The notes under the pieces: generated by a model
Database searches by the model: none
Told to the model about the DNA's origin: nothing
What the model saw: the letters and a program-made list of their open reading frames with translations, nothing else
Assembly: GCA_903813345.2 (NCBI GenBank)
Contig: CAIIXF020000008.1
Coordinates: forward strand, 5,963,341 to 6,027,340
Origin: Owenia fusiformis
Lineage: Eukaryota > Annelida > Polychaeta > Sabellida > Oweniidae
Direction of reading: 5' to 3'
DNA: 64,000 bases
Position numbers and translations under genes: made by a program
Part shown: positions 144 through 54,300 of the stretch, piece after piece
How positions within the stretch are numbered: the first letter of the stretch is position 1
How the letters are laid out: every line of letters begins with the position of its first letter

Positions 144-3100
144 TTGTGTTGTTGTAAATACATGATTGGAACTCCAGGTATTTTTCTTATCCTCCTTCTA
201 AGATCTTTATCACATGTGCCCACTATGTAGCATTTGTGCTGTAAGAAACATTCAAACATTTAGAAATATCAAATCTGCCCACTATGTAGCATTTGTGCTA
301 TAAGAAACATTCAAACATTTAGAAATATCAAATCTGCCCACTATGTAGCATTTGTGCTATAAGAAACATTCAAACATTTAGAAATATCACATGTGCCCAC
401 TATGTAGCATTTGTGCTGTAAGAAACATTCAAAGATTTACAAATATCACATGTGCCCACTACATAGCATTTGTGCTATAAGAGACAATCAAACATTAAGA
501 AATATCACATGTGCCCACTATGTAGTATTTGTGCTATAAGAATCAATCAAACATTAAGAAATATCACATGTGCCCACTATGTAGCATTTGTGCTATAAGA
601 AACAATCAAACATTTAGAAATATCACATGTGCCCATTATAGCATTTGTGCTCTAAGAAACAATCAAACATTTAGAAATATCAAATGTGCCCACTATGCAG
701 CATTTGTGCTATAAGAAACAACCAAACATTTAGAAATTTCACATGTGCCCATTATGCTGCCTTTGAGCTACATTTAGAAAAATTAAAGTTGTTAACTTAA
801 CATTTGAACCACTTTTAAATAAATTAAAAGAAAGCACATATCATAAATGTGTTCAGACTGTTTTTTATGGTTCCTGATTTTGAATCCTATTATCTTGGAT
901 TGCTTCATCTTATGTCTATATATTATGTTTCTGTACCTCTGTGACTCTGTTGACCAGGCAGTCATCAGCATATGTGCCCTTGTGCAAGCAAGTCAGACGT
1001 TCAAACCTTGGATCTTTAGCCATTCTGAATATCAAGAAAATAAAGATGAAAAGTCACATTTTATTTATCTTATTTATTACAGGTCTCTATATATACTATA
1101 GATGTATATTTTCTAGTAAATGTATTGCAATCATAGTGAAGCATTTGTATGGGAGTCAATGGAAAAGTAGGTGGGCTATAGGTCCATATAGCCCACCGTA
1201 TAGCCCATTTCATTTATAACCATGACATGATTTATCATAATGACATCATGTTTGATTTCTTCCAAAGTTCATTCGGACACAGATGCATGACATAATCAAT
1301 ATAAAGTAGCCATGGAAATAAAAGTATGTAATACATCTGTTATATAACTATGACGCAAAATATGCTCAATCAGGGTATTAGATACAGTTTAAAGGAATTA
1401 CAAAGATGGAACAGCAAGTTTGATGATAAAAACTGATTATGTTGACATGTTACCTCAATGCAATTCTGTATTTGGGTCCTAGTTTTTCTATTTCTGCCAT
1501 GACACAGTCTGTAATATAGGGTACACCTGAAACACAACCAAACATAAGTCAATGTAGCATGATACATTACAGTACATTAAAAATATTCAGACGTTTATTT
1601 GTTATTACTTTATCGTTATTAAATGGAAGTAGAGGGGATACAAATAAGTTGAGAGTTTCCTAAGGTTTCAAACAGAGCTTTAACAAGGAAAAGTCTTACT
1701 ACCTGCAAATGGTTAAGTTACAAAAATGACAATATGATAAACAAGTCGCAAAAAAACTTAGCTACAATACATTACCAATTTTTGGAAGAAAGGTGAGATA
1801 ATAAAACTAGAATTGTTCGCGGTTAATTCAACTTACACTTAGCATACAGACAGTCCATCATTGATTGCACGATGTCTAACTTATTCTTAATAGAGAAGTT
1901 GATGAAATTGGTGTCGACCAGTACATGATATGGGGGTCCCAGTTGGGTGTTATATTTGAAGAACATGGCAGATGAGGCTTGTGGTCTGAAAACAAAAGGG
2001 AGGATTATTAATGCCAATGTACTATATATATTTCTTTTATTTTCAATAGTATCAACCAGTGAATCAATCATTTGTGTACAGTAAAACCTGTCTAAGTGGA
2101 ACACCTCACTAAAAAGTGTTCCACTTATTTCACTTACTTATAGAGGTTCATTTAACATTAAGCCTTAATTAGGACTCTGAAAAGTGTTCCACTTGCAGAG
2201 GTGTGCAATTCTAAATCGAGCAAAATATCTATCCCATCCAAGATAAAGAATAACTTGATTATACACAGATACTAGCATTCTTTGATTCACATCACGGCAA
2301 AAAAACGCAGAATTTTGGTTTTCAAAATTTTTGCAGAATTTGATTTTTTCGCACGAAATTTCGCAGAAAATGTGATTTTTCCAGTCAACCACCTCATCTC
2401 ATATTTGTCACTCACCTTGACACCTTAGACGGTCATTTGTCACCAGAAACTGGTTTTAAGAGGTTTTCGAAGGGGAAATGTGAAATCTGTTGAAAATTCT
2501 CCAACTTAGATTTTTTGCACTTAAAGATTACATCTAATAATTGTCACTTTGAATTCCCTGCAATTTTGTGATAGTTCAAATGAACCCGTTGCTTGCAGAA
2601 TTTATCGCGTAATTCTAGATTTTATGCAGAATTTGGTGCTGAATTCGACTTTTTCTGCCCAGAATTTGCATTTTTCTCATGCACAAAACTAGGATGTGTG
2701 ATTAAAAACATAATTCAGCTGTCAAAAAAAAACATATAAAACTCCAATCTTATCTTTTGATTTTTACTTACAATTCTCGTATCTTCATATTTGAGGGATC
2801 TGCTTTCTTTCTCTTCTTTTTCTCTCTCTCTTGGAACTTTCTGGAATGAAAAAGCATATGAATTATTTAGTACTAGATTCTTGTCTATAGGAAGAAGGAT
2901 GTAACATTTGGTCCTTCTGAGAGAACTATGTATTGCAAACCACATATATTTTAAGCAACATATGAATCGAATTGACTTTTCAGTAAGTCGCTTTAAGGTA
3001 AGTCTGCATGTTCGGAATTTTGATGCTCAAAAGAGTCACATTTATTTTTCAAATATCAATCACTCCTTCCAGTCATTATCTACATCTTTTAGTTTTGCAC

Positions 3101-5216
3101 AAAGAGTGCACTTACCTAGAAAAGAATGTAAAGAATATTTTTTTCATAAATTGTATGAAAAATGAGAAAATTCAATGACAGTAGGTCACTGAATTGTCTC
3201 TAATTGAACTGGGTTTTGGACAACTGGGTTTCGGAAAACTGGGTTTCGGAGAATTGGAATTCGGACAACTGGGTTGACCCCATTCCTGCACATGTTATTT
3301 TCTGGTACAAAATAAAGTATGACGGCATGTGTCAATTTCCCTGCTTTTTTCAGGAAAGTATAATTACATTGTCTTCTTTTGTAATATTTGGTAGGAGTTC
3401 AATGGGAACTCCAGGAAATTCTGATATTTCAGACTTTATATTTTTCCAAATTTTCTTTCAACGTTTCCAGACAACACAGGAGCTACCATTGACCTGTTTC
3501 CAGGTTTACTAAAAGTAGACAGTGTAATGATACTTTCCTGAAACAAGCAAGGAAATACACACATGCCTTCATATTTAATTTTGTACCAGAAAATAACATG
3601 TGCAGCTATAGCAATTTTTTACCAAAATGTTACTTTCCAGCTGAGCCTGATAACGACCCTGAAACCTTGATTTTCTAGTTTTTATACATTTTACAATATT
3701 CTTCCCACTCTTTTCTAGGTACATTAGTGCACTTTTTGTGCAAATCTAAAAGATGTAGACAATGTTAGGAAATAGTAATTGATCTTTGAAAAATAACATG
3801 TAACTCTATTTTACCTTCTTCTAAGGCCACTGTATCGTGGCCTTCCAGTACAGATATATTTCTGCATGAACAACTGGTCATGTCGTAATAATAAAATTTG
3901 AAATCATATGTCCGCCATTTTTCCACATCACAATTTGAATTGCGAGTTTTGGTCTTATTACCTCATCAAAAATTCCAAAACACACATAAAATGATCAGTG
4001 TATTAGTTCACATCTTCTGGATCGCTAACTTAGAATTTACAGCCAGTTACTAATGTCAGACGTTAACGACATTTCGTCCAGTTTTCGAACATCGCCATTT
4101 TTCTTGGAGCCATTTTGTTTTAATTTTAGACGAAATCCTGATGAAATCATGTAATATCTCATCAAGGAACCGAGCTGGGTCCGGTTTGGTTAATGATTTA
4201 TTTATCTGGCGATTTTTAAAATATTCAATAAATTTATGACACCCCGGCATGCTTTTTTCAAATAGAGTTCACAGTATTCCAGATGCAATCCCCTCTAGCC
4301 AAGTATTGGCTAGAGACTCGAGTAAACTCTATTGAGGATCACATCAAAAACATGCAGTCTGACCTAAAGTTGAAAATCTTATATGGATGTTGAACATTTT
4401 ACTTTGGACTTGATAGCAAGGTAGCCATTTCTAGCCCGAAAATTTTGTTACAAGTAATATTGTCCCGCGAGAAAATCTTGGTGGGTTGACACTAGACTAT
4501 ATCCTATTTAGTCTGAATTATATTCAGACTATAAGGCACCTATGTTAAAGTTTGGTAATATGAAATATTTGTTTACATAGGAAGTGCTATTCAAAATGGC
4601 CGATTGGTAAAATTAATTTGCACATTTTTACTTCAACTAGCTTTATTTCCACATGACAATGTGCTGTGTTACTTTTTATTGCATTTAATTGTACCTTACT
4701 ATTTAATTGAAATTTTGTAATGTTTATTTTATTGAAGAAATGGTTCCTCTAATTGATAATTTTATGCAAAAAATTTCACTGCAATTTCCACAGGAAAGTA
4801 GTACATCATAACAAACTGACTTTTTGTCAGTCTGTTGGATACATACTAGGGTTGACACCACTGCCACTAAAATGTAAGTTTTCAAAAGCTTTACTTATGC
4901 GGTATTGTATTATTTTTCTCTATACTTACTATCTGAATAAAATAGTCACAATTATACCTTTAGATGTCGCTCCAAGTTTCTGCGATATATACACAAATGT
5001 CAATATTGAAATATTGAGTGGGCGATAATATGATATTTTGAAAAATTAACTCACATTCTGCTGTCTTTCAGGTTGATCATTCGCTTCATTGCCGCAAACT
5101 TCTGCGTTTGTTTGCTCTTCGCCTATTCCGAAAAAAGAAAAAGTATACATTAGACATGAAATACACCTAAAATCACTAAATTAACACGATAAAGTGAGAA
5201 ATGTAAAAATTACCAT
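144..5216 (-). CDS. FCF1: FCF1/Utp24 rRNA-processing PIN-domain protein, seven of probably eight coding exons
   Basis: FCF1 is a nucleolar small-subunit processome protein. Its PIN-type nuclease domain is tied to early 18S pre-rRNA cleavages. Exons, in minus-strand order: 5214-5216 (ATG only), 5055-5122, 2772-2840, 1837-1985, 1454-1526, 937-1024, 144-238. All junctions keep phase and give 181 residues plus two bases. Visible blocks: a basic N-terminus (KFAAMKRM near residue 10), [10 protein letters not shown] and LVDTNFINF (Asp71), [10 protein letters not shown] (Glu108), GTYADDCLV (Asp141/142), and [14 protein letters not shown] near the end. These match the family almost residue for residue. 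The family's final YNIERMPDDYG segment is missing. The last exon here ends at a GTGAGT donor with phase 2, so that exon should lie left of base 1. An in-frame TGA directly at that donor would truncate the protein if it were not spliced. One difference from the usual family: residues 157-160 read GTCD where ATVD is usual. Confidence 0.95.
209..780 (-). repeat. 59-bp x10 tandem array made of the FCF1 intron-6 acceptor plus start of exon 7
   Basis: On the minus strand each unit has 29 bases of intron end (T-rich tract, CTTACAG or CTTATAG) followed by 30 bases that code [10 protein letters not shown], the first ten residues of FCF1 exon 7. The plus-strand marker GCCCACTATGTAGCATTTG begins at 218, 277, 336, 395, 454, 513, 572, 631, 688 and 747. 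Spacing is 59 bp throughout except one 57-bp step. Copy 1 (218) runs on into the real exon. Copies 2-9 each keep an AG acceptor, with exon-start positions 297, 356, 415, 474, 533, 592, 649 and 708. Copy 10 is diverged. The unit is not a multiple of three, and entering at copy 2 or copy 4 reads into TAG inside the next unit. Confidence 0.95.
2078..2206 (+). repeat. Dispersed repeat family A (ACAGTAAAACCTG type), copy 1
   Basis: Starts with ACAGTAAAACCTGTCTAAG and contains repeated GTGTTCCACTT motifs. Related copies lie at 12033-12206, 21278-21425, 31337-31517, 32375-32569 and 41233-41314. Several of these end in AGGTTTTACTGT, the inverse of the start, which suggests a MITE-like element. Here it lies in an FCF1 intron and the right terminus is unclear. 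Confidence 0.6.
3034..3807. repeat. Large imperfect palindrome (inverted repeat) in FCF1 intron 2
   Basis: The left arm (3034 to about 3382) reappears inverted at about 3506-3807. Paired blocks include TACATCTTTTAGTTTTGCAC with its inverted partner near 3740-3760, and GCACATGTTATTTTCTGGTA (from 3290) with its inverted partner near 3588-3606. The central ~120 bp is unpaired. The left arm carries an extra tandem repeat (3207-3275) absent from the right arm. Transcribed within the FCF1 pre-mRNA, it could fold into a long hairpin. Confidence 0.85.
3207..3275 (+). repeat. 15-bp minisatellite, about 4.6 copies
   Basis: Tandem AACTGGGTTTCGGAN units at 3207, 3222, 3237, 3252 and 3267. It lies inside only one arm of the surrounding inverted repeat, so it expanded (or was lost from the other arm) after the arms formed. 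Confidence 0.85.
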
Positions 5217-5732
5217 CGTGGTTAAGTTAGTTGCACAACTTATTTACATTTCGAAGACATTCAGATTTTATATGATTCAACATATTTATATTTCAAATTT
5301 TGAATTCATTTTACAAAGATAATTAAAAAGAATAATTACTTGATAGATCTTACGATTGTAACTTTCATTTTTCTTCATATTTTTAATTATTTATATTTTT
5401 CCGTTCCGTTTCCCAGTTGTGCATTCAGTGATTACCCAGACAAAAATTTATGAAAAACGCTTGGATAAATTTTCCTCTAAAAATGCTGTTATAATAATGG
5501 AATGGTGAGTACATCGATGAAATCGGCAATGCCTTCTTTTCAAGTCGAGGCCAAAATATTAGAATCACATCGTTATTTCATGTTGCGTTGTCCAAGAACG
5601 TAAAAATTAATGAAAATATGAACCTCAATTTTCCTGATAAAACTGGCTGCACAGACATTGAAATGTGAAACTTGTTTCCTGGAAAATGGCATCACAATTT
5701 TTCTAATATGTATGTTGTTTATGGTTTATTTG

Positions 5733-7193
5733 AGTATTTCAACACAGGAGTATGTATCAACACCTGATATCTATTGCCAAACCTGAAATAATGAGCTCTG
5801 TCTGGGTTATCCCGTTCCCGGACTATAGTCCTGCACTGATCGCATTCATTTGCCTGTACGATTACAACTTGGGAGAATTATCTACGCCCCTTACACTTAA
5901 GATACCTACCTCAATGCATTATAGAACTCAAGATGTAACTTCTAATATATTGGAACCGCCGATTGTCTGGGTATATCGGCACAGTGTTTTCAGTAGGCTT
6001 GTCCAAGATTGCGTCCATGGGACGTAATGATTTTCAAAAAATGCGTCTCCCCTCAAAAAACTGCGTCTCTTGAAAAAATGTTCCCGGGAATTCAAAGTCG
6101 CGTTTTTACACTGGTCGAAATAAATTGATGAAATTTTGTATCACCGCTTTTCATTGAATGATACAGATGCCCTCACTTGTGAGGTATAACTTATATTCAC
6201 CCATTAAAAATACATTTTATTTGCGAATTTCGAAGCAATTTGCTATTGATTTTGCTTTAGCATGTTTAGTTTAGGGGCAATCTGCGCGAGGTTCAATTTT
6301 TTGGTTCAGTTTCTTGCGCATATGCAGTCTCAAATAATGATCACGTGATCGCACTTGACCAATTGAAAATGGTTTGAATCAGGTCTTCAGCTACCGGCCA
6401 ATCGTAGGACTCGTACTGATTACTGCTCTGAAATCGAGTATTGGATAACTTCTTGTCCTATCACATGCCTCGTACTATTTCGATCAGAAATCAACTTCCG
6501 GGAAGGAAATTTCGAAAGAAAATTTTATTTCTTTTAGAAATAGAATTTCCTTCAATTACATAGTGGATTCTGACGAAATAAAGAGATTGAAGGTAAGATC
6601 TTTATCAAATCATTCATCCAAAGTTGATTGTATGAGAATGGCTTGCACTGCGTCCACAAAACGCAATCACTTTTTATTTCCGGGTCCAAGGGATATATTT
6701 TGCGTGTATGTAATGTAAGGACGGCGTTATTGAAAACACAGCGGCAGAACGGGAACATTTTCTCTTTTTCATCGAGAGAGATTCCATCACTTTTCAAAAT
6801 GGCGGTTGGATTTAAAAGGGGAATCCCCCGTTTGGCTGTCCCGGATGTAGCCCGGAAGTACCAATATGGAGGAATTTGACGGTTGAAATAAGTTAAATGT
6901 TACACGCAAATATTGCGATCAAAAACGAAAATGTCTTCGTTCTGCCGATAAACCCAGACAATTGTGGATTCAACTACACGAAAAGAATGCTAAATTACCA
7001 AGGAATCTATTGAAGTAGGTATCTGAAGTGTAAGATCAGTAAAAAATTCTCCCATGTTGTAATCGCACAGGTAAAAGATTGAGATGTTCACAGGACCATA
7101 GTCCAGGAACGGGATAATGTCTGAGTATTATTCTTCCAGGTTGGGCCACCAATCGATGTCAGGTGTTGATACAAGTTCCTGTGTATTTCACAG
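5733..7193. repeat. Inverted repeat with ~250-bp arms
   Basis: The arm at 5733-5981 recurs inverted at 6942-7193. Shared blocks include TTGTCTGGGTATATCGGC (left) against its inverted near-copy at 6942-6962, plus TATCAACACCTGA, TATCCCGTTCC and GATTACAAC stretches. The loop (5982-6941) starts with a segment duplicated directly at 7544. The arrangement suggests a fold-back type non-autonomous element. No transposase is seen. Confidence 0.75.
5982..6570 (+). repeat. Direct repeat, left copy (589 bp)
   Basis: Runs from CAGTGTTTTCAGTAGGCTTG to CATAGTGGATTC and recurs at 7544-8106. Shared blocks include GGGGCAATCTGCGCGAGGTT, TTCTTGCGCAT and AACTTCCGGGAAGGAAATTT. The termini are not TG...CA, so it does not look like an LTR. 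Confidence 0.85.
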
Positions 7194-7543
7194 GATTTTT
7201 CCAAGTCTTGATCGGTTTTTAAAAAGAAATCCTATGGAATCCTGATCTTCATTTCTCTCCTTGTTGAGTCCGACGGAGATCAATGTCCACAGTTGCATTT
7301 TTCATTGTCTTCATCGTTTTATTTTGTTAAAATCTGATCATGTGATACTTCCATGGTAACAGGCTTTCATGCATGATGTTACACGGTCCTAGGGGATTTC
7401 ATTGGACTTTAGGTTGCCGCAGGTCTCCAACTGACTCCAAAGGTCTCAGGAGGCCACATTGGGGTATCATGAAAATAGACTGTCATTACATGTACGAATT
7501 CGCGAATGTAGACCCAAAATCTGCAGTTGTCAACAATTCATAG

Positions 7544-8106
7544 CAGTGTTTTCAGTAGGTTTGTCCAAGATTGCGTCTCAGTCTTTCCCGGGAATTCAAA
7601 ATTACACTTTTACACTAACTGAAATAAAATTGATGAAATGTTGTATCGCTTTTGCTATCTATCAGTCTAAATCAGTGTTCTGGCAAGTCTAGTATGTCAT
7701 TGAATGATACAGATACCATCACTTGTGAGGTATAACTTATATCAACCATTAGAAACACATATTCTTTGCATATTTCAAAGCAATTAGCTACTGATTTTGC
7801 TTTAGTTTAGGGGCAATCTGCGCGAGGTTCAACTTTTTGGTTCAGTTTCTTGCGCATGCGCATTCTTAAATAATGATCTTGTGATCGCACTTGACCAATA
7901 GAAAATGGTTTAAATCGGGTCTTCAGCTAGCAGCCAATCGTAAGGCTCGTACTGATTACTGCTCGGATATCGAGTATTGGATAACTATTTGTCCTATCAT
8001 ATGCCTCGTACTATTTTGATCAGAAATCAACTTCCGGGAAGGAAATTTCTAAAGAAAATTTTATTTCTTTTAGAAATAGAATTTCCTTTAATTATTTAGT
8101 GGATTC
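7544..8106 (+). repeat. Direct repeat, right copy (563 bp)
   Basis: Diverged second copy of 5982-6570. It has a ~55-bp insertion (about 7647-7702) and lacks some bases present in the left copy. The two copies flank ~970 bp that includes the inverted arm at 6942-7193. Confidence 0.85.
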
Positions 8107-8731
8107 ACGAAGTGATTTACGAAATTCAAATTGCGCCCCAAAAACATTATTATTTTTTTAATTTACGTCCACCCAATCTTGATTTACATCCTCTCCATTG
8201 AAGGGCGCCGTTAATGAAATCACTGCATAGATATGGGTTATGTTTTGTTCAGCCCAATCTCAAAATGCAGCCAAATTCATTGAAATTTCTTATTTTAGAA
8301 AGAGGTCAGACATATTTTACTGTAAATAAAAAATGGCACCAATAGAAACTATTTTAGGTATATAATAATATCCTAATAAACAAACAAACCTACTGGCATC
8401 TGGGTTATTGATTGAAAAAATCTCCAAATTGCCATAATTTTACAAAAATCCATTATAATAGGAAATGATAATTAATAGACTGCACTGAACTCAAATTATG
8501 CCTTTTGCTGAACTAGCACTCAGTTAGAAATTTCTCTACATATTTTGTACTATATTGTTTATATTTGTGCTCTCATTATCAGCATAAACAGTGATAAAGA
8601 AGTTATAGCCACGGTATTTATTTATAATTTACCTGCAATCGGATTCTGTGAGTGTAAATTTATTTTTAATATTATTCACACACTTCATTACAACATATAA
8701 TTGACATAGTCTATTTTCATGCCTCAACTTT

Positions 8732-8839
8732 CACTGGGATTATAGTATAAGTCATATCCACTGGGTTTAAAGTATAAGCCATATTCACTGGAATTAAAGT
8801 TTGAGTCATATTCACTGGGTTTCAAGAATAGTGCATATT
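8732..8839 (+). repeat. 27-bp tandem repeat, four copies
   Basis: Units start at 8732, 8759, 8786 and 8813 and follow CACTGGGTTTAAAGTATAAG plus CATATT. It lies about 230 bp upstream of the TTBK start codon. Confidence 0.85.
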
Positions 8840-9072
8840 CTTTTGTTGACATTGTTGTGTTTTGGTATATATCACGGGCTCACATAATTCATTTATATGG
8901 AGTTAAAAGATTAAATATCATATACATATTCACCAGTTTTAATGTATAGACCCTATACACCTTTTATGTTTCAGTATATCATGGCCTAGATGATGTTTGA
9001 CCATAGTGAAACATGCAGTGTTGAAATGAGGGTACCTTGAGTCAGAGCAATTAAAGGTGAAGCTACGTTAAC

Positions 9073-25383
<16,311 letters not shown>

Positions 25384-51300: not shown

Positions 51301-54300
51301 ATGATTAATTATTAGACAGGACTAACAAGAAATATATTTTCGATGTAATAATGTTTCTTGTATCATAGGATAATTAAAACATCTCATTAATTTGAGATAC
51401 AATTATGTTTTTTCAGTAAAGTACTGACATTAACTATATATTTAAGTTTCTTTTTATTTCATTGATTTTCCAATGAATATCAAACAATAAACTTTCATAC
51501 ACTTGTAAATGTATGAGACACCAACTCCACAATATGGTGCAACCACAGACAATAAACGTGAACAAAAACATCTAAACAAATAAAAACAAACATGAAAACT
51601 AAAGAACAAAGAATACAGAATGGAGTCACAGATAGAAAAAGTGCAATTTTAACTAGAAATATTTAAACATAGAGATAATCTATATTTATTGGTGAAGAAA
51701 TAAAATATGGTGCATTTGTCAGAATTTAAATATACTATGAATATAGCACTTAGTTTAGCACAAAATATCTATAAACATATACGTAAAATAAAGAAGGACA
51801 GCATTGTTTTGTTAGGCAGTATGTAGATAGGAAGCATCATATATAATTCAATACACTATAGCCACAGATGAAATACAGTAATTATAAAGAAAAGTTCTGC
51901 TGGTAGCGGTCTAGTTTATTAATTTGACATGGAAAAATTGCATCTTTTGCATGTTAAGCTTACATCATGAGAAAAGAGGCTTCAACTTTCATCTGTTTCC
52001 ACTTTAGTTTTTTATATCAGGAGATACACTGTGTACATTATGTATATGTGTGGTCTCTATAATTATCAATTTTCAATCATCCCCCATCAAAATATTAATG
52101 TTTGGCATTCCTTAAACCCCTTTTCTAAACCAAAATAAATAAATAGACATATTGTAATCACATTATTAATTTGAAAGTTATAGATCAACTCAGAGATATT
52201 CCTTCGAGAAAGTTGACGCCTCTGTTTGATTTTGCAAGACTATGTTGTAATAAAGCATGTGAGCAGCTATAGTAATGCCATCTATAAATGAGCTTGATTA
52301 CTACCTTTAAGTAAGTTAGACCAAGATTGAGTCTTTAAGTATTCCTCCCAGATTTCTAGAACAAGGCAATATTCAAATTGACATATCAGAAAAATAAATC
52401 AACAACTTTGATAATATTTAGAAAGTGTGAAAGGTGTGTCTGTCCAATACTTGGACGTGTTTGAGTATAATATATTGGACTCAGGATAACCCCTATATCC
52501 TGAACATCCTGTAATTCTATAATCAATTTTTATACTAGTTTTGAACAAATTCCCAGGTATCTGTTAAAAATATAGATCGGTATTAAAATGTATATGTAGG
52601 TAAGTGTGTATTATGTTCTAATGAATAATATTTCGATAGTACCAACAAGTATGAGCTGGTTTGCGTTAAAATTCACTGGTCTTTGACCCAGATCATGGAT
52701 AAACTAATAGACCTGACGCTGACACCATACAAGCATTTTCTAGGTAAGGACCAGTTAAGATATCTGACATCATAAATACTGTATATCTTATTTCACTAAG
52801 TACTGAAGCTTGAATAATATTATACGAAACGATTTCTTTAAAATTCTTTACCACAAAGTTAAATACTCAAAGTGCCGAAATGAAATTAGTGTTCCGTTAA
52901 TATGGTTATGAATTCAACTGAATAGATTTGAATTGAATATCTCAAAATGAAAGTGTTGAATGATAAATGAAATAAGATTTGACACCTCCACTCAGTAATG
53001 AATTTCACTACATTTTATATGACTAGACAAAATATATTTCGCATATGATTAGGTGAACATGTCTAGGTAATTTAAAGTGTGGATATGTCTAGGTAATTTA
53101 AAGTGTGAACATGTCTAGGTAATTTAAAGTGTGAACATGTCTAGGTAATTTAAAGTGTGAACATGTCTAGGTAATTTAAAGTGTGAACATGTCTAGGTAA
53201 TTTAAAGTGTGAACATGTCTAGATAATTTAAAGTGTGTATATGTCTTGGTAATTTAAAGTGTGAATGAAATTTGTGATCAAATGCCTATAGCCCTAAGGC
53301 ACTTTCGTATGTATTGCTATGTAAAAAGTATTTTATTCCATTTCTTAAGTTATAATTGTAACGATCTATGAGGTCCAGTTTTAGCATAATTAATATAAAT
53401 TAATTTTTAATGAGCTTTGACTGGTTTATGTTATGCATGCAAGTTCTTTCTACATTTATATTATTTTGAAATTATGTTTGATATTAATTTTCGACTGTTG
53501 TTATCAATTGTATATTTAAGCTCTCCTTCATTAAGTAAACTCATGTGTTATGCATGGATGAGTCTGTTGTTTTTAGTTACTATGGTTACCTTCGTGGTCA
53601 GTAAAATAAACTCCTGACCAAGATTTAACGGAGATCCTACCATCCAAATCTAAGAAGAATTTACAGAATAAAGGTAATTGAAAAATTCTCGAAGAGTTTC
53701 AGTTAAGAATCAACAATGATAAATAGGAACTAATCACAGATATAGATTCTAATACAGTAACCATGCATATGCATACAAATACATTCACAACAGAAATTAG
53801 TACATAAAGTACATAAACAAGAGAATAGAACATGCCTTATAAAGTAAAAAACACCATGCATATTATAAAAACAATTATACAATGCCACCAAATATGTATT
53901 TAGAAAAATAAACAATACATTCATTATCAGAAAATAATCTACCACACTGAATCTTATCATATAACCCCCCCCCCTTCTTCCATGAGAGTTGGACTGAATA
54001 TGAGCGACTTAGTACTTACCACATTTCTTGCCTTTTGGTCGCTTCGTATCCTCATCATCATGGTCTGACCCATTTTCCATGTTCCCATCAGAAACGTGAC
54101 CACTGGATTTAGACTTCTTTTTAGCACCTTTCAAAGCACCGGAATAATTTGCAGAGTCCCATAATTCTGTTAGTTTTGCTTGTTCCACTGGAGAGATTTC
54201 CCTCGTAGCCTGTTGAAATATATAAGGTTGATAATTAACTGGGATTAACTTCATAATTTGAACTTTTTTAATATACACTGTGTGCATTTATCCTCTGTGT

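Follow-up and report, generated by a model that had tools for sequence, protein, structure and literature searches.

The window analyzed, a 64-kb stretch of the genome of the annelid Owenia fusiformis, contains on its minus strand exons 2 to 7 of an FCF1 gene, namely, exon 2 (positions 5055 to 5122), exon 3 (2772 to 2840), exon 4 (1837 to 1985), exon 5 (1454 to 1526), exon 6 (937 to 1024; 88 nt, ending in VTE), and exon 7 (144 to 238; 95 nt); exon 8 is found beyond the edge of the window, running downward from C8:5962884. Exons 2 to 8, seven in total and including the one adjoining the array described below, join into one open protein ending in YSIERMPDAYGAPKV; exon 1, the ATG exon, was not located. 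A 77-amino-acid query translated from exons 5 to 7 aligned end to end with human FCF1 (PDB 7mq8; E value of 2e-40), and the reading of the same exons matched the Pfam family Fcf1 (3.6e-26). Among the best-scoring candidates, FCF1 was found at one locus in the 498-Mb assembly. As calculated from the exon coordinates, intron 7 measures 599 nt, and intron 6 measures 698 nt if it ends at the acceptor at 238 and 169 nt if it ends at the first decoy, at 767.

The boundary between intron 6 and exon 7 is covered by a ten-copy minisatellite (209 to 781, minus strand). TRF reported it at 208 to 770 with a period of 59, 9.6 copies, 91% matches, and a score of 902, which is far above chance. Read on the minus strand, the unit joins 29 nt from the end of intron 6 to the first 30 nt of exon 7. 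The units follow each other at a spacing of 59 throughout, save for one 57-nt step, with copies 8 and 10 showing small gaps in the alignment. Among the best-scoring candidates, a single place in the assembly matched the sequence of the array.

The ten units provide acceptors at 238, 297, 356, 415, 474, 533, 592, 649, 708, and 767. Their scores are approximate, since they derive from a simple position matrix with approximate frequencies. Copy 1 (209 to 267) carries the presumed genuine acceptor, TTACAG, with the exon starting at 238 and a score of 6.9; in its exon part, it does not differ from the unit consensus. Protein homology points to the use of 238. Copies 2 (268 to 326; acceptor 297, TATAG) and 3 (327 to 385; acceptor 356) are identical, both score 4.8, and on entry would meet stops at 225 and 284, respectively. 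The next four units are copy 4 (386 to 444; acceptor 415, TACAG; stop 343; score 8.2), copy 5 (445 to 503; acceptor 474; stop 402; score 6.8), copy 6 (504 to 562; acceptor 533; stop 497; score 4.8), and copy 7 (563 to 621; acceptor 592; stop 556; score 6.7). Copy 8 (622 to 678), of 57 bp, has an acceptor at 649 that reads GAG (stop 625; score 2.8), and copy 9 (679 to 737) has one at 708 (stop 654; score 7.4). Copy 10 (738 to 781; acceptor 767; stop 695; score 3.3) is a degenerate edge unit that lacks 15 nt before its TAG in a hand-placed alignment, and upstream of it, the sequence of the intron is unique.

Much of this structure had been proposed in an earlier note on this DNA. The description of a ten-copy, 59-bp unit made of 29 nt of intron end and 30 nt of exon start is borne out by both TRF and the unit alignment, and the AG that the note saw in copies 2 to 9 is intact in all ten copies. 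The acceptor at 238 is, as claimed there, the only one that leads directly into the exon (238 to 144, 95 nt, donor GT at 143), exon 7 being the sole exon that runs on from the array. The number given to this exon also fits the series of exons 2 to 8 with their single open reading.

Splice signals and reading frames

With scores of between 2.8 and 8.2, the decoys bracket the presumed genuine acceptor, and two of them, at 415 and 708, score higher. The six other acceptors of FCF1 reached scores of 7.0 to 12.0. The strength of the acceptors alone can thus not single out 238. What sets this site apart is its context, that is, a full exon and a strong donor close by: the exon 7 donor at 143 scored 9.2, the top value of the six FCF1 donors scored (5.2 to 9.2). 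The motifs CTAAA or CTTAA, which we take to be branch point-like, are found approximately 22 nt upstream of the AG in 8 of the 10 units. The exceptions are copy 4, which reads GTAAA, and copy 10, in which the motif is too close to the AG.

Entry at each of the nine upstream acceptors leads to a premature stop that is located 79 to 549 nt before the exon 7 donor, and the resulting exon would measure 154 to 624 nt, as compared to 95 nt via 238. The earlier note had reported such stops for entry at copies 2 and 4, which is correct for these two copies, but the property is not limited to them and extends to all nine upstream entries; its proposal that the upstream acceptors, if used, would yield truncated mRNA agrees with these readings. 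Stops of this kind need not be a matter of design, since random frames are mostly closed and exon 7 itself holds an out-of-frame TAG. In the sampled DNA, random codon runs were open in 30% of the cases over 20 codons, 11% over 40 codons, and 5% over 60 codons.

Divergence and possible growth of the array

When the decoys were compared with the unit consensus, 29 of 514 letters differed, gaps being left out. Of these differences, 16 fell within the exon part (268 letters) and 13 within the intron part (246 letters; Fisher P = 0.85). All 18 AG letters of the decoys are intact, and this complete retention is unremarkable because it has a probability of 0.35 at the divergence observed. The comparison of exon and intron divergence and the retention of the AGs thus made no constraint on the decoys visible, either as acceptors or as coding sequence.

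The identity of copies 2 and 3 points to a probable copying of neighboring units. The similarity between units decreased with distance only when copy 10 was included, in which case 339 of 10,000 permutations reached the observed value. With copy 10 left out, this number was 4190 of 10,000, and the gradient is thus not robust.

Boundary arrays elsewhere in the genome

The genome was sampled in two sets of 10-kb stretches, 20 in the first and 5 in the second, chosen beforehand at round coordinates and adding up to 250 kb. TRF detected 36 arrays with a period of at least 25 and at least 1.9 copies in this sample, 17 of which had at least five copies, and the genome is thus rich in minisatellites. 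The GC content of the first 200 kb sampled was 35%. Three of the 36 arrays are located on recognizable exon boundaries (in the stretches L016, L032, and L014).

The largest of the three in copy number covers the acceptor of a TRPM-like SLOG exon (L016, 6255 to 7281; C5:9006255 to 9007281) and has a 94-bp unit in 11 copies, laid out as in FCF1. The exon matched Pfam LSDAT_euk at 8.9e-5 with 22.5 bits, below the cut-off of 25.7, and in the PDB, TRPM3 and TRPM1 chains appeared only with E values of 0.57 to 0.95, behind designed repeat proteins. The array exon itself is absent among the 24 SLOG matches listed. Just upstream, there are three SLOG matches above the cut-off, in order and on the same strand, one of which spans two stops and probably runs into an intron. 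With weak support from the PDB, the TRPM label is based on the Pfam match and the gene context. All ten upstream entries reach stops; one of these entries is in an edge copy that is degenerate and scores very poorly. The presumed genuine acceptor scores just 2.5, similar to seven of its decoys.

The second array covers the donor of a ZU5 exon (L032, 6699 to 7065; C7:30006699 to 30007065; Pfam ZU5, 7.1e-17) and offers six donors in a 60-bp unit. All five decoy donors lead to a stop. The copies are nearly identical, and a single silent change in the exon part sets the gene-adjacent one apart. The third array has two copies of a 62-bp unit over the acceptor of a probable UGGT exon (L014, 2510 to 2631), and its upstream copy is dead, with a CAC at the acceptor. 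As a query, this exon produced only a chance-like MSP match in Pfam (0.018) and nothing in the PDB. Its label as a probable UGGT exon comes from UGGT domains that follow 9 to 24 kb downstream on the same strand.

Four further short stretches, picked for a paralogous TRPM exon and additional to the 250-kb sample, provided boundary arrays in two cases. One is at the donor of a TRPM SLOG exon (L028, 1 to 169; C10:19674800 onward; SLOG, 1.7e-25), with a 29-bp unit and at least five junctions, since the stretch ends inside the array; one junction has AT in place of GT. The other is an 84-bp repeat of 2.1 copies (L029, 396 to 586; SLOG, 2.8e-17) that lies at the acceptor of another TRPM SLOG exon or slightly upstream of it, the exact acceptor being uncertain. 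The remaining two stretches gave no candidate: L030 contains two 26-bp arrays off the exon, and L031 contains none.

These cases were selected in scans for open exons beside arrays. The scan of the first 20 stretches and the window gave 14 rows, three of which were kept (FCF1 in the window, L016 at 6255, and L014 at 2510), and that of the 5 additional and the 4 TRPM stretches gave 9 rows, with three kept (L032 at 6699, L029 at 400, and the donor side of L028). The rows L014 4505, L010, and L019 1538 had no Pfam match. The arrays at L014 4505, L019 1538, and L010 5083 lie in apparent coding frames and were not counted as boundary arrays; that at L014 4505 is inside an open frame of 597 amino acids. 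The remaining rows were dropped by eye, and the count therefore comprises recognized cases only. An array in the window at 53053 to 53265, with a 26-bp unit, 8.2 copies, and splice-like letters (CTAGGTAATT), was also dropped, as no adjoining exon was recognized by eye. The periods of the coding-frame arrays (L014 4505 to 4806, L019 1538 to 2820, and L010 5083 to 10000) are 54, 60, and 96, each of them divisible by three. Those of the six boundary arrays are 29, 59, 60, 62, 84, and 94, four of which are not multiples of three. The erythrocruorin-linker domain, of a family typical of annelids, had three matches above the cut-off in the assembly.

Extrapolated from a small count that is based on recognizable genes, three boundary arrays per 250 kb correspond to about 6,000 per genome (95% interval, 1,233 to 17,474), and the two with at least five copies correspond to about 4,000 (483 to 14,399). 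With 26,966 genes, the number given in PMC9977687, and an assumed 5 to 11 exons per gene, random placement is expected to put 1.3 to 3.1 of the 36 arrays on a boundary. Since three were observed, no excess needs to be explained, and boundary arrays seem to be neither strongly favored nor strongly purged.

Relation to known systems

The earlier note knew of no described satellite of this composition; however, the kind has been published. The "mirages" of lancelet genes are minisatellites that extend over intron-exon boundaries (PMC3087553), with examples in Adh3, the globins BflGb6 and BflGb9, and troponin C (PMC3087553, PMC3902484). According to PMC3087553, many but not all of their units contain AG/GT, the length of the clusters varies between haplotypes, somatic instability occurs, and RT-PCR suggested that regular splicing was undisturbed. 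In BflGb6, the same report describes a duplication of the 3' end of an intron and the 5' part of an exon, with six and three units in two haplotypes. The authors of a study on PGBD5 liken their own splice site repeats to mirages (PMC3902484).

By its structure, the FCF1 array is a mirage: its tandem units combine sequence from both sides of a single intron-exon boundary, the functional exon is continuous with the gene-adjacent unit only, and the AG is kept in 10 of 10 units. Like the mirages, which are reported on the acceptor or the donor side, it is a tandem duplication over an intron-exon boundary, but it occurs in the FCF1 gene of an annelid and has a 59-bp unit in ten copies. We found no report of arrays named mirages outside the lancelets in our searches of open-licence papers. 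What is new is the context, namely, boundary arrays that recur in an annelid genome, whereas the kind itself was already known.

Minisatellites at exon-intron boundaries have likewise been described among human internal tandem repeats that alter exon-intron structure, and they may cause novel introns (PMC2812944). Unlike FCF1 with its one locus, those repeats are reported from recent primate paralogues in segmental duplications, most of them with alternative transcripts. The competing alternative 3' splice sites studied in PMC9225289 resemble the FCF1 acceptors in that complete sites more than 20 nt apart are in competition; in contrast, a single natural intron of FCF1 holds ten sites that are nearly identical.

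Interpretation

We consider it likely that the array is a neutral minisatellite that was born over a splice site and is tolerated with the exon-adjacent acceptor mostly in use. It may have arisen when a segment that by chance included the acceptor of FCF1 exon 7 was duplicated in tandem, and would then have grown to ten units, partly through the copying of neighboring units. Most of the ten units appear to be complete 3' splice sites. Only the site at 238 is continuous with the other 65 nt of exon 7, and it is the closest, over an exon of 95 nt, to the donor with the highest score in the gene. Exon definition may favor 238, and the other copies would leave with the intron. Minor use of the decoys, giving mRNA with a premature stop, is probable. 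We expect the use of mostly 238, with minor leakage, because both flanking introns are long if this site is used (698 and 599 nt), and long flanking introns are the setting said in PMC9225289 to favor cross-exon pairing. The two proximity rules conflict at this gene, since proximity across the intron favors 767 (169 nt versus 698 nt) and proximity across the exon favors 238. The cross-intron rule counts against our preferred explanation, as does the overall preference for the upstream 3' site in the data set of PMC9225289, where an exon definition architecture is reported to lower this preference significantly. The neutral alternative raised in the earlier note is consistent with the equal divergence of exon and intron parts, the expected retention of the AGs, and the similar arrays on other genes.

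The same note had also suggested a splicing-linked dosage control, in which decoys divert FCF1 transcripts to premature stops and decay, tuned by copy number or splicing factors. A stop more than about 50 nt upstream of an exon junction triggers nonsense-mediated decay by the usual rule, and the stops of all nine decoys would do so; in addition, the presumed genuine acceptor is matched in strength by several decoys. Against this stand the lack of any sign of selection on the decoys, the expectation of stops in random frames, the equal layout on unrelated genes, including the two-copy case with a dead upstream acceptor, and the statement in PMC3902484 that the lancelet Adh and troponin C mirages yield no aberrant mRNA. 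Dosage control is thus unsupported, and we regard it as unlikely. A related but broader reading, which we judge to be improbable, is that boundary minisatellites by the thousands act through changing copy number as a rheostat on productive mRNAs of essential genes such as FCF1 and give rise to heritable variation in expression; if true, this variation would arise through splice site competition.

Tandem repeats are error-prone, and the assembly of a lancelet globin mirage seemed aberrant in the draft genome (PMC3087553), yet the inflation of a few copies by mis-assembly is unlikely here, with a very slim chance in our estimate: the copies are distinguished by variants at many sites, the array is shorter than 600 bp within a 39-Mb contig, the Owenia PacBio reads are reported with an N50 of 25.75 to 30.75 kb (PMC9977687), and several separate arrays of a like type are present in the assembly. 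We see just as slight a probability that the exon fragments in the units are actual or nascent small exons between new introns. Such a model of intron gain was published for lancelet mirages (PMC3087553), and the units do carry donor-like GTs, of which the one in GTGGGC would, by our own count, delimit a piece of 15 nt from the AG that keeps the frame; the piece from the AG to GTGATA would be 25 nt long and break it. However, the main GTs of the unit score 3.3 to 3.9, values that are reached by 12 to 16% of random GTs, below the range of the six FCF1 donors (5.2 to 9.2). Finally, the array might be an element acting at the DNA level, for example, an enhancer made of a cluster of CACATGTG, which we take to be an E-box. 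This motif is present in 7 of the 10 units, but it falls in the exon codons for G-T-C-D, and this reading, otherwise unsupported, is extremely improbable.

Viewed as tolerated neutral minisatellites, the FCF1 array and its counterparts resemble a repeated accident with which splicing copes, and not a special switch. Having been found repeatedly in an annelid genome, such arrays may be numerous in any genome that is rich in minisatellites. They represent natural experiments with up to eleven near-identical splice sites per intron, in which order and distance are the main variables, and they would allow a direct test of whether proximity across the intron or across the exon prevails. Shifts of exon ends or the gain of introns could plausibly draw on such arrays, which are a trap for gene prediction as well. 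The two-copy array at the probable UGGT exon, in which the upstream AG is lost, is a possible early stage.
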